A DNA stretch of 64,000 nt from assembly GCA_946886065.1 (NCBI GenBank), contig CAMPHU010000001.1, positions 20,580 through 84,579 of the forward strand, read 5' to 3'. The notes beneath the pieces are model-generated. The model worked only from the letters and a program-made list of their open reading frames with translations, did not search any database and was not told the origin of the DNA. Source of the stretch: an uncultured Massilia sp. GTDB taxonomy: Bacteria > Pseudomonadota > Gammaproteobacteria > Burkholderiales > Burkholderiaceae. A program made the position numbers and the translations under genes. This document shows, one piece after another, positions 22,861 through 28,896 of this stretch (the first letter of the stretch is position 1; each line of letters opens with the position of its first letter).

Positions 22861-22912
22861 TTGACAGGCAAGCGCGGCGGCGGCATACTTGCGAGATATG
22901 TTAGCGCTATCA
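22861..22912 (+). promoter_or_regulatory. Sigma70 promoter with LacI-type operator for the GPH/GH94 operon
   Basis: TTGACA at 22861-22866, 17-base spacer, CATACT at 22884-22889: a near-consensus promoter. TGTTAGCGCTATCA (22899-22912) is a near-perfect palindrome placed just past the -10, where a bound repressor would block initiation. The same 14-mer, in the same orientation relative to its gene, precedes the gluconokinase gene at 28883-28896. LacI-family proteins bind such short palindromes with a central CG. Confidence 0.8.
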
Positions 22913-22978
22913 ACTTTAGCATGGCTGGGCGCTGATAAAAGCGGGGCCGGTCCCCGCATACCAATAACGGAGACGATC

Positions 22979-24400
22979 ATGCTGACACGTGAGGACGCAA
23001 GCCCAGGCTGCGCCACGCCCGCCCCGCCTTCCAGCCCGGGCGCCGCCGCGCCGCCGGCCGCCGCCGCGCTGACCTGGCGCGAAAAGCTCAGCTACGGCGT
23101 CGCCGACATGGGATTCAACTTCTTCTGGACCAATGTCGCCACCTTCCTGCTGATCTTCTATACCGACACTTTCGGCATCTCGGCCGCCGCCGCCGCGACC
23201 CTGATGTCGGTCATCAAGATCGTGAATGCCTTCACCGATCCCATGATCGGCGCCGCCGCCGACCGCACGGCGACCCGTTTCGGCAAGTTCCGCCCTTACC
23301 TGGTGTGGATGTCGGTGCCGCTGGGCGCCGCCGCCGTGCTGACCTACACCACGCCCGACCTGGAGGGAGACGCCAGGCTGGCCTGGGCCTACGGCACCTA
23401 CCTGATGATGATGGTCTGCTACACCTGCGTGAACATCCCCTACAACGCGCTGTCCGGCGTGATGTCGGCCGATCCGCAGGAACGCTCGACCATCAATGGC
23501 CTGCGCTTCATCTTCGCCTTCGCCGGATCGACCCTGGTCACCGCCGCCACGCCCTCGATGGTGCAGTGGCTGGGGGCCGGCAACGAAGCGCGCGGCTGGC
23601 AGCTCACCATGCTGGCCTGGAGCGTGGCCGCCGCCCTGCTGTTCCTGGTCACCTTCCTCAATACCCGCGAGCGCGTGACGCCGATGCCGGGCCAGGAGTC
23701 GGACGTGAAGCGCGACATCCTGGACCTGATGGCCAACCGTCCCTGGATGGTGCTGTTCGTGCTGGCCCTGGTGATCATGGTGACCATCACCCTGCGCACC
23801 ACCACCGCCGCCTATTACTTCAAGTACGTGGTGGGACGCCCGGAACTGATGGCCAGCTTCGTGCCCACCTACATGGTGGCCGCCGCGATCGGCGCGGCCT
23901 GCACGCCCCTGCTCACCCGCTTCGCCGACAAGAAGACCCTGATGATCGTGTTGATGAGCGCGACCGCGCTCCTGTCATCGAGCTTCTTCTTCATTCCGCC
24001 GGAGCGCATCGACCTGATGTTCGCGCTGCAGGCCGGCCTGGGGCTGGTGCTCGGGCCCAAGTCGCCGCTGGCCTTCTCGATGTACGCCGACACCGCCGAC
24101 TACAACGAATGGCGCACCGGCCGCCGCGCCACCGCCATGACCTTCGCCGCCGCCACCTTCTCGCAGAAACTCGGCACCGCGCTGGCCGTGGCCGTGATCG
24201 GCTCGGTGTTCACCGCCCTCGGCTACGTGCCCAACGCCGCGCAGAGCAGCGGCTCGCAGGCGGGCATCGTGTGGCTGATGTCCTTCGTGCCGGCCGCCTT
24301 CGCGCTGGCGGCGGTGCTGACCATGTGCTTCTATAACCTCGACAGCAAACAGCTGGCCCGCATGCAGGCAGACCTGGCCGCGCGCAAGGCCGGAACATGA
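22979..24400 (+). CDS. GPH-family sugar/cation symporter (MFS superfamily)
   Basis: A 473-residue carrier of the glycoside-pentoside-hexuronide:cation symporter family (MelB/XynB type). Seen: KLSYGVADMGFNFFWTNVAT at the start of TM1, TDPMIGAAADRTATRFGKFR (the loop 2-3 signature) and the mid-chain KYVVGRPELMASFVPTYMVA. About 12 hydrophobic helices. The start at 22979 is preceded by CGGAGAC. The stop overlaps an in-frame ATG of the next gene, so it is coupled to the GH94 phosphorylase. Given that partner and the shared operator with gluconokinase, the likely cargo is a beta-glucosidic disaccharide acid such as cellobionate (inferred). Confidence 0.9.
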   Translation: MLTREDASPGCATPAPPSSPGAAAPPAAAALTWREKLSYGVADMGFNFFWTNVATFLLIFYTDTFGISAAAAATLMSVIKIVNAFTDPMIGAAADRTATRFGKFRPYLVWMSVPLGAAAVLTYTTPDLEGDARLAWAYGTYLMMMVCYTCVNIPYNALSGVMSADPQERSTINGLRFIFAFAGSTLVTAATPSMVQWLGAGNEARGWQLTMLAWSVAAALLFLVTFLNTRERVTPMPGQESDVKRDILDLMANRPWMVLFVLALVIMVTITLRTTTAAYYFKYVVGRPELMASFVPTYMVAAAIGAACTPLLTRFADKKTLMIVLMSATALLSSSFFFIPPERIDLMFALQAGLGLVLGPKSPLAFSMYADTADYNEWRTGRRATAMTFAAATFSQKLGTALAVAVIGSVFTALGYVPNAAQSSGSQAGIVWLMSFVPAAFALAAVLTMCFYNLDSKQLARMQADLAARKAGT

Positions 24401-24411
24401 ATGGAGACCCG

Positions 24412-28112: not shown

Positions 28113-28352
28113 ATGGGATCCAAATTGGAAAGCCAGTGGTGGTACGGTGGCCTGGTGACGGCCCTGTCCATGCTGTCGACACGGCTCGTGTTCGAGTCGG
28201 CGGGCTTGCCCCTGCCGGAGAACCTGGCCCAATGGATCCTGTGCGCCTTCTGCTTCACCTGCATGTGGCGCTGCTTTTCCTTCCTGGGCTGGCTGACCGT
28301 CCTGCTCGTCGCGCCCGCTTCCAGGCTCCTGGAACAGACCCTTCCCCGCTAA
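28113..28352 (+). CDS. Small membrane protein, unknown
   Basis: A 79-residue protein with two probable hydrophobic segments (WYGGLVTALSMLSTRLVF and WILCAFCFTCMWRCFSFLGW, followed by LTVLLVAP). GGAGGA lies about 7 bases before the ATG, good support for translation. The gene ends 4 bases inside the converging gluconokinase gene. No family recognised. Confidence 0.6.
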   Translation: MGSKLESQWWYGGLVTALSMLSTRLVFESAGLPLPENLAQWILCAFCFTCMWRCFSFLGWLTVLLVAPASRLLEQTLPR

Positions 28353-28873
28353 CGCCCGCTTCCTGCGCTGGCCAGGATGCGCCCGACCAGGGTGTCCGGA
28401 TCCTCGCCCGCGTCGAGCGTGATGCCCGCTTCGTCCGCCTGCAGCGGCTCCAGCGTGCGCAGCTGGCTGTCGAGCAGCGATGCCGGCATGTAGTGCCCCG
28501 GACGGCCGCGCATGCGCGCCTCGATCAGGCCGCGTTCTCCGGCCAGGTGCGCGAATCTCACCTGGCCCGGCGCGTCTCCTGCCCCGCGCAGGATGTCGCG
28601 GTAGGCGCGCTTGAGCGAAGAGCAGGACAGCACGATGCCCTTGCTGCCGGCATGCGCGATCTCGGCGCGCAGCGCTTCCAGCCAGCCCTGGCGGTCGGCA
28701 TCGGTCAGCGCGATCCCGGCCGACATCCTGGCCACGTTCTCCGGCGAATGGTAATCGTCGCCTTCCACGAAGGGCGCGTCCAGCGCCGCCGCCAGCCTGG
28801 CGCCCACCGCACTCTTGCCGCAGCCGCTGACGCCCATGACGACCCAGGCGATGCCCTTTTCCTTGATATCCAT
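28349..28873 (-). CDS. gntK: Gluconokinase
   Basis: A 174-residue GntK-type kinase that phosphorylates gluconate to 6-phosphogluconate with ATP. Seen: P-loop VMGVSGCGKSAVGARLAAAL, FVEGDDYHSPENVARMSAGI, LSCSSLKRAYRDILRGA and GHYMPASLLDSQL, all signatures. I chose the start at 28873 (MDIKEKGIAW); a longer frame would read through the operator. The operator palindrome lies 10 bases upstream of this start. The gene follows the LacI-family regulator on the same strand and would channel gluconate from cellobionate phosphorolysis into the pentose-phosphate or Entner-Doudoroff route. Confidence 0.94.
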   Translation of the reverse strand: MDIKEKGIAWVVMGVSGCGKSAVGARLAAALDAPFVEGDDYHSPENVARMSAGIALTDADRQGWLEALRAEIAHAGSKGIVLSCSSLKRAYRDILRGAGDAPGQVRFAHLAGERGLIEARMRGRPGHYMPASLLDSQLRTLEPLQADEAGITLDAGEDPDTLVGRILASAGSGR

Positions 28874-28882
28874 ACCTTGCAG

Positions 28883-28896
28883 TGATAGCGCTAACA
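28883..28896. promoter_or_regulatory. LacI-type operator upstream of gntK
   Basis: TGATAGCGCTAACA, the exact reverse complement of the operator at 22899-22912. It sits between the LacI-family gene and gntK, immediately 5' of the gntK start. Confidence 0.78.

Follow-up and report, generated by a model that had tools for sequence, protein, structure and literature searches.

One gluconate-sensing repressor appears to control the cellobionate importer, the cellobionate-cleaving enzyme and the gluconate kinase of a soil-type bacterium. In a 64,000-nucleotide stretch of DNA from an uncultured Massilia sp. (the window), the LacI-family regulator GntR likely represses both the symporter-CBAP operon and gntK through the 14-mer TGTTAGCGCTATCA, and gluconate or 6-phosphogluconate derived from imported cellobionate likely releases it. 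Oxidative breakdown of cellulose yields cellobionate, and a phosphorylase for this acid is known; a conserved operator combined with a gluconate regulator offers a directly testable answer to how the cellobionate pathway is switched on. Our observations comprise sites, promoter geometry, protein families and co-occurrence in relatives, and from them we infer GntR binding, repression, the identity of the inducer and the substrate of the transporter. At the level of sequence, the comparison of relatives supports the original prediction that a single LacI regulon covers the import of a disaccharide acid, its cleavage by a GH94 enzyme and the phosphorylation of gluconate.

The genes of the window encode the protein families expected of such a pathway. 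The first gene (22979..24400, plus strand) encodes a GPH-family cation symporter (TIGR00792, 378 bits against a cut-off of 231; PF13347 match), which is a probable cellobionate importer judging from its operon. Its stop is overlapped by the start of an ORF for a GH94 cellobionic acid phosphorylase (CBAP; 24397..26760, plus strand), in which the profile search found the GH94 domains PF17167 and PF06165. The nearest solved chain is 4ZLE, the CBAP of Saccharophagus degradans (1221 bits over residues 9–787), and the next, 1V7V, follows far below at 204 bits. R612, K616, and Q195 align with R609, K613, and Q190 of 4ZLE, which we take to be the carboxylate-binding residues of the +1 subsite, and in the alignment chitobiose phosphorylase 1V7V has other residues in place of the Arg and Lys. 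These matches favor the predicted role of the GH94 enzyme in splitting a disaccharide acid. Among the best 80 of 447 CBAP relatives in our scan, the nearest ones bearing an organism name come from Massilia (91%). The CBAP substrate is assigned here from sequence, and the S. degradans enzyme is said, in the 2015 work of Nam, to accept glucuronic acid as well; the true substrate of the enzyme and symporter might be a different disaccharide, acidic or neutral (one containing glucuronic acid, for example), in which case the pathway would not be one for cellobionate. We consider this very improbable given the aligned residues, and a gluconate product fits the linked gntK and GntR, whereas a glucuronate product would not. 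The gluconokinase gene gntK (GntK/IdnK type; TIGR01313, 175 bits against a cut-off of 114) occupies 28349..28873 on the minus strand. The adjacent LacI-family gene (28941..29969, minus strand), earlier called only GntR-like, encodes a GntR of the Pseudomonas aeruginosa type that scores 526 bits on NF052440 against an equivalog cut-off of 400, and it stays below the cut-offs of the Escherichia coli GntR and IdnR models (288/500 and 252/433 bits, respectively).

Both transcription units carry the same 14-mer just past the -10 box of a clear promoter of the sigma-70 type. Putative GntR operator 1, TGTTAGCGCTATCA, is an exact match at 22899..22912 on the plus strand; putative operator 2 reads TGTTAGCGCTATCA in gene orientation at 28883..28896 on the minus strand, with 9 nt between it and the ATG of gntK at 28873. 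The scan of the window thus recovers the predicted pair, pointing the same way toward the symporter gene and gntK. The description of the site as a 14-bp palindrome stands for the identity of the two copies and fails for full palindromy, as the word is self-complementary in 6 of 7 base pairs. The symporter-CBAP operon promoter (22861..22889, plus strand) consists of TTGACA (22861–22866), a 17-nt spacer and CATACT (22884–22889), which ends 9 nt before the operator, as had been noted for a site just past this -10. The gntK promoter, located between gntR and gntK (28904..28932, minus strand), consists of TTTACA (28932–28927), a 17-nt spacer and TATCCT (28909–28904), followed after 7 nt by the operator.

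The repeat alone is weak evidence, and we rejected it as an argument by itself: counting both strands, the window contains 451 distinct 14-mers in two or more copies, and 11 of these are self-complementary in at least 12 of 14 positions. This abundance would suit a chance origin of the palindrome, or a generic site involved in no joint regulation. The exact word is nevertheless rare, as dinucleotide composition predicts 0.00015 occurrences of TGWTAGCGCTAWCA in the window. At ≤3 mismatches, there are 6 matches compared to 2.3 expected, a number reached by 6 of 100 shuffles and hence within the range of chance. The sole additional place at this threshold, 59166 (59166–59179; 2–3 mismatches), precedes an ORF that resembles an ABC substrate-binding protein by sequence reading; the match is weak and at chance level, and a third operator there was rejected. 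A chance origin of the repeat is nevertheless extremely improbable in view of the conservation of the site at the same genes in relatives, its fixed geometry at promoters, and the reversed word, which has 0 occurrences in 34 CBAP-bearing genomes.

The promoter geometry was compared in 25 GPH and 20 cluster-gntK site-bearing promoters; the set includes the window in both groups and one orphan copy among the gntK-type promoters, and it left out other site-bearing promoters, mainly of further Duganella and Rugamonas loci. The operator starts 6–11 nt past the -10 in 25/25 GPH promoters and 7–12 nt past it in 20/20 gntK-type promoters. In all 45, the best-scoring promoter within 70 nt upstream ends 6–12 nt before the operator. 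Mean promoter scores of 9.84 (GPH) and 9.0 (gntK) out of 12 exceed the highest means from 200 single-base shuffles (7.00 and 7.25, respectively). When 15 of the 25 GPH upstream regions, the window included, were aligned, mean column identity was 45%, and the invariant columns were confined to the -35 and -10 elements and the operator, which also supports the assignment of the symporter promoter in the window.

The site accompanies GntR at CBAP loci of diverse relatives. The CBAP scan found 447 relatives, and the best 80 loci were analyzed, with GntR defined by ≥40% identity over 250 aa and the site by ≤2 mismatches at a cluster promoter. As counted by script among these best 80 of 447, GntR is present in 67 loci, and 65 of the 67 carry the site, the two without a ≤2-mismatch site at a cluster promoter being L045 and L074. 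The proposed association of the site with GH94, GPH and gntK genes was thus looked for and recovered in relatives. In Oxalobacteraceae, 45 of 46 GntR-bearing CBAP loci have a ≤1-mismatch site at a cluster promoter (the miss is L045), and so do 11/11 of the Cellvibrio, Gilvimarinus, and Marinimicrobium types. The Roseateles types carry a site with exactly 2 mismatches in 9/10 loci, mostly GGATAGCGCTATCC, and their miss, L074, has a 3-mismatch form. Only one (L065) of the 13 CBAP loci without GntR has the site; six of these loci are short or cut (L027, L049, L055, L063, L065, and L069), with a GntR piece at the contig end of L049. Reversed sequences gave a ≤1-mismatch match in 0/80 loci and a ≤2-mismatch match in 4/80, anywhere in the locus.

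Gene order differs among these loci. Massilia types keep the genes in separate units, Duganella types have the order gntR-gntK-GPH-CBAP, and gntK and gntR are divergent in Cellvibrio types. The order gntK-TonB receptor-GPH-CBAP was found in L020, L023, and L028, the three loci on which the family search was run, and probably also applies to L046. In the window, the 250 bp upstream of gntR contain no operator with ≤4 mismatches, and autoregulation of gntR was rejected there. The same region is free of ≤4-mismatch sites in 10 of the 11 Massilia/Telluria/Pseudoduganella loci read, the exception being a 4-mismatch site in L001. In loci of the other arrangement, a 1–2-mismatch site lies upstream of gntR in 5/5 read (L022, L023, L024, L040, and L067).

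Exact sites in whole genomes concentrate at genes for cellobionate and gluconate use. Genome-wide counts come from the genomes of relatives, and the extent of the regulon in the window organism is judged from them. In a first sample of 34 genomes, chosen for having CBAP, exact TGWTAGCGCTAWCA occurs at 70 places. Sorted by hand from tables, 53 of these lie at GPH-CBAP or gluconokinase genes, comprising 19 at GPH or CBAP, 14 at gntK of the GntR-CBAP cluster, and 20 at gluconokinase genes outside that cluster (gntK2, distinguished from gntK1 by place and not by sequence). One exact site lies ahead of a TonB receptor gene and one ahead of a lactonase-like gene. Another belongs to a gntK-type promoter beside gntR with no gntK after it (L006 18445, identical to L094 1501), as if the kinase gene had been lost.

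The 10 of 70 exact sites within ORFs and those of one genome (G014) are reported without a claim of regulation. TGTTAGCGCTAACA lies 1.6–1.7 kb inside a TonB receptor gene in 5/70 cases (L083, L143, L149, L153, and L155); these genes are related to the TonB receptor of the regulon, and the word in them is possibly just conserved coding sequence. In 2/70 cases, the exact word lies inside a GH9 cellulase ORF, ~70 nt from its start (L102 5813; L142 3001), a position that could link a cellulase to GntR. In a further 3/70, it falls within the part of a gene that encodes the signal peptide of a ~1030-aa secreted protein (L144, L145, and L147, near 3001), where it is read as M-I-A-L-S with ATA and CTA codons, which we would expect to be uncommon in DNA this rich in GC. 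G014 holds 4/70 exact sites (L159–L162) near PEP-CTERM and SnoaL-like genes, as judged from family searches covering one of two nearby ORFs in L159 as well as L161 and L162, with the L160 gene left out; another LacI protein perhaps uses the same word in this genome.

Because the first 34 genomes had been selected for CBAP, a second sample was taken, comprising 97 genomes from the family to which G002 belongs. GntR scores over the cut-off in 29/97, the exact site occurs in 18/97, and both occur in 16/97. GntR is encoded in 16 of the 18 genomes with the exact site versus 13 of the 79 without it; conversely, the exact site is present in 16/29 GntR-bearing versus 2/68 GntR-less genomes (Fisher p 9e-9, relatedness ignored) and absent from 13/29 GntR-bearing genomes. 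The reversed word was found in 3/97. CBAP (E ≤1e-150) is encoded in 4/97 genomes, and all four also have GntR and the site. Of the 16 genomes with both, 11 have one or more sites at gntR, gntK, GPH or CBAP, and in the other five (G065, G088, G095, G117, and G129), the sites read, including 1 of the 3 in G095, lie away from GntR, gntK, GPH and CBAP. The loci concerned in these five genomes are L241, L243, L245, L246, L248, and L249.

Such sites raise the question of whether a different LacI-family protein binds the operators while the adjacent GntR is a bystander. The five genomes with sites elsewhere would suit this explanation, as would the richness of these genomes in LacI-type proteins (G002 alone gives 14 model matches) and two genomes without GntR over the cut-off (G082 and G106), where TGTTAGCGCTAACA lies ~220–270 bp from another LacI gene. 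It is still very unlikely, as site presence tracks GntR across the 97 genomes, G002 has just two exact sites and both lie in the GntR-CBAP cluster, and the site and GntR stay together despite the differing gene orders of the Oxalobacteraceae, Roseateles, and Cellvibrio types. The word beside another LacI gene in G082 and G106 suggests that the operator class probably serves more than one regulator. The sites in these two genomes are at L239 4169 and L240 4174, and the neighboring LacI gene is 38% identical to GntR.

With GntR as the preferred regulator, a repression mechanism can be proposed. The LacI-type, gluconate-sensing protein would bind TGTTAGCGCTATCA just past the -10 boxes of both units, and both promoters would therefore be blocked at or near the transcription start without inducer. 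Cellobionate would enter via the GPH symporter, CBAP would convert it with phosphate to glucose 1-phosphate and gluconate, and gluconate, or 6-phosphogluconate made by GntK, would release GntR, turning on both units. The operator placement fits the repression mode of P. aeruginosa GntR; the same mode would imply product induction, in which basal import and phosphorolysis of cellobionate give the gluconate that opens both promoters. The effector is here a matter of inference. In disaccharide operons it is often the disaccharide that the regulator binds, which would allow the same regulon to be induced by cellobionate itself or by the glucose branch. We regard this as unlikely. GntR exceeds the equivalog cut-off of P. 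aeruginosa GntR, and this namesake responds to gluconate and 6-phosphogluconate (PMC5902321). In addition, the same operator occurs at gntK2-TonB receptor-gntP units away from CBAP, and GntR, gntK and the site occur in genomes without a CBAP match at E 1e-150 (L244 and L250–L254).

The proposed gluconate-responsive regulon is likely larger than originally described, extending to a gntK2-TonB receptor-gntP operon and to an oxidoreductase/lactonase locus. The former unit was read in L099, L100, L104, and L105, with families run on L099. At ≤1 mismatch, G001 and G002 each have a site between oxidoreductase and SMP-30/gluconolactonase-like genes. The best solved match of the G002 oxidoreductase is the aldose-aldose oxidoreductase (AAOR) 5A02 (E 9e-127), and its N-terminus resembles a twin-arginine signal. 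A search of the 32 remaining CBAP-bearing genomes found AAOR in 20 (10/10 and 10/22 in two batches). A ≤2-mismatch operator lies within 200 bp upstream in 14/22 AAOR loci, namely in 14/15 with a lactonase gene in the stretch read (12/13 in the unbiased count, which excludes L257 and L264 because the site itself had led to them) and in 0/7 without one; the background in the same loci is 0 matches in 76,800 positions. AAOR as a universal regulon member was rejected on the basis of these seven loci, and the oxidoreductase/lactonase locus is a likely candidate member of the GntR regulon in Massilia types. A number of gntK promoters belonging to gntK-TonB receptor units carry two operators 98–165 bp apart (G001:C88 31915/32080; G002:C51 39203/39364; G030 and G031 C11; L039 13512/13610; L056 15725/15870), a spacing that may be compatible with looping.

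TonB receptors and an exported-type sugar oxidoreductase tied to the same signal may reveal the source of cellobionate. It is possible, if short of probable, that GntR runs a complete self-inducing aldonate economy, with extracytoplasmic oxidation, uptake, catabolism and a common end-product inducer. Outside the cytoplasm, an exported AAOR and a lactonase would oxidize glucose to gluconate and cellobiose to cellobionate, AAOR activity on cellobiose being our guess; the TonB receptor, the GPH symporter and GntP would import the acids, CBAP and two gluconokinases would feed them into central metabolism, and gluconate or 6-phosphogluconate, as the shared end product, would induce the whole set. 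The cell would then make its own cellobionate and would not rely solely on the oxidative cellulases of others.

The regulator, the operator core and the enzyme are already known. In the searched open-licence full text, we found no regulator or operon of cellobionate use, no regulator of the S. degradans or Xanthomonas campestris CBAP, and no link of CBAP, TonB receptor or AAOR/lactonase to GntR, consistent with the earlier statement that no described LacI-controlled cellobionate regulon of this layout was known. The window CBAP is of the same GH94 type as the enzymes of these two species (PMC8950772). E. coli, in contrast, grows on cellobionate mainly via AscB, not CBAP (PMC4403981). Its GntR and IdnR are likewise LacI-type gluconate regulators of gntK, but the window protein falls under both model cut-offs. 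The overlapping sites ~13 bp apart upstream of E. coli gntKU (PMC4052901) resemble those at gntK in L023, L028, and L046, where the second site has 2 mismatches. The closest counterpart is P. aeruginosa GntR, a LacI-family protein that, according to PMC5902321, regulates gntR and gntP, represses via TAGCGCT-containing sites over the polymerase site, is released by gluconate and 6-phosphogluconate, and is proposed to control gluconate kinase and permease genes. TAGCGCT forms the end of the site bound by this protein in the same source, and it is the core of the putative operator at gntK in the window and relatives. The site belongs to this known operator class, a point missing from the original prediction, and the window regulator belongs to the same family. 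Unlike the strict P. aeruginosa layout, the window gntR has no operator at its own promoter (≤4 mismatches, 250 bp), and the regulon here adds a cellobionate importer and phosphorylase, to which relatives add TonB receptors and the AAOR/lactonase locus.
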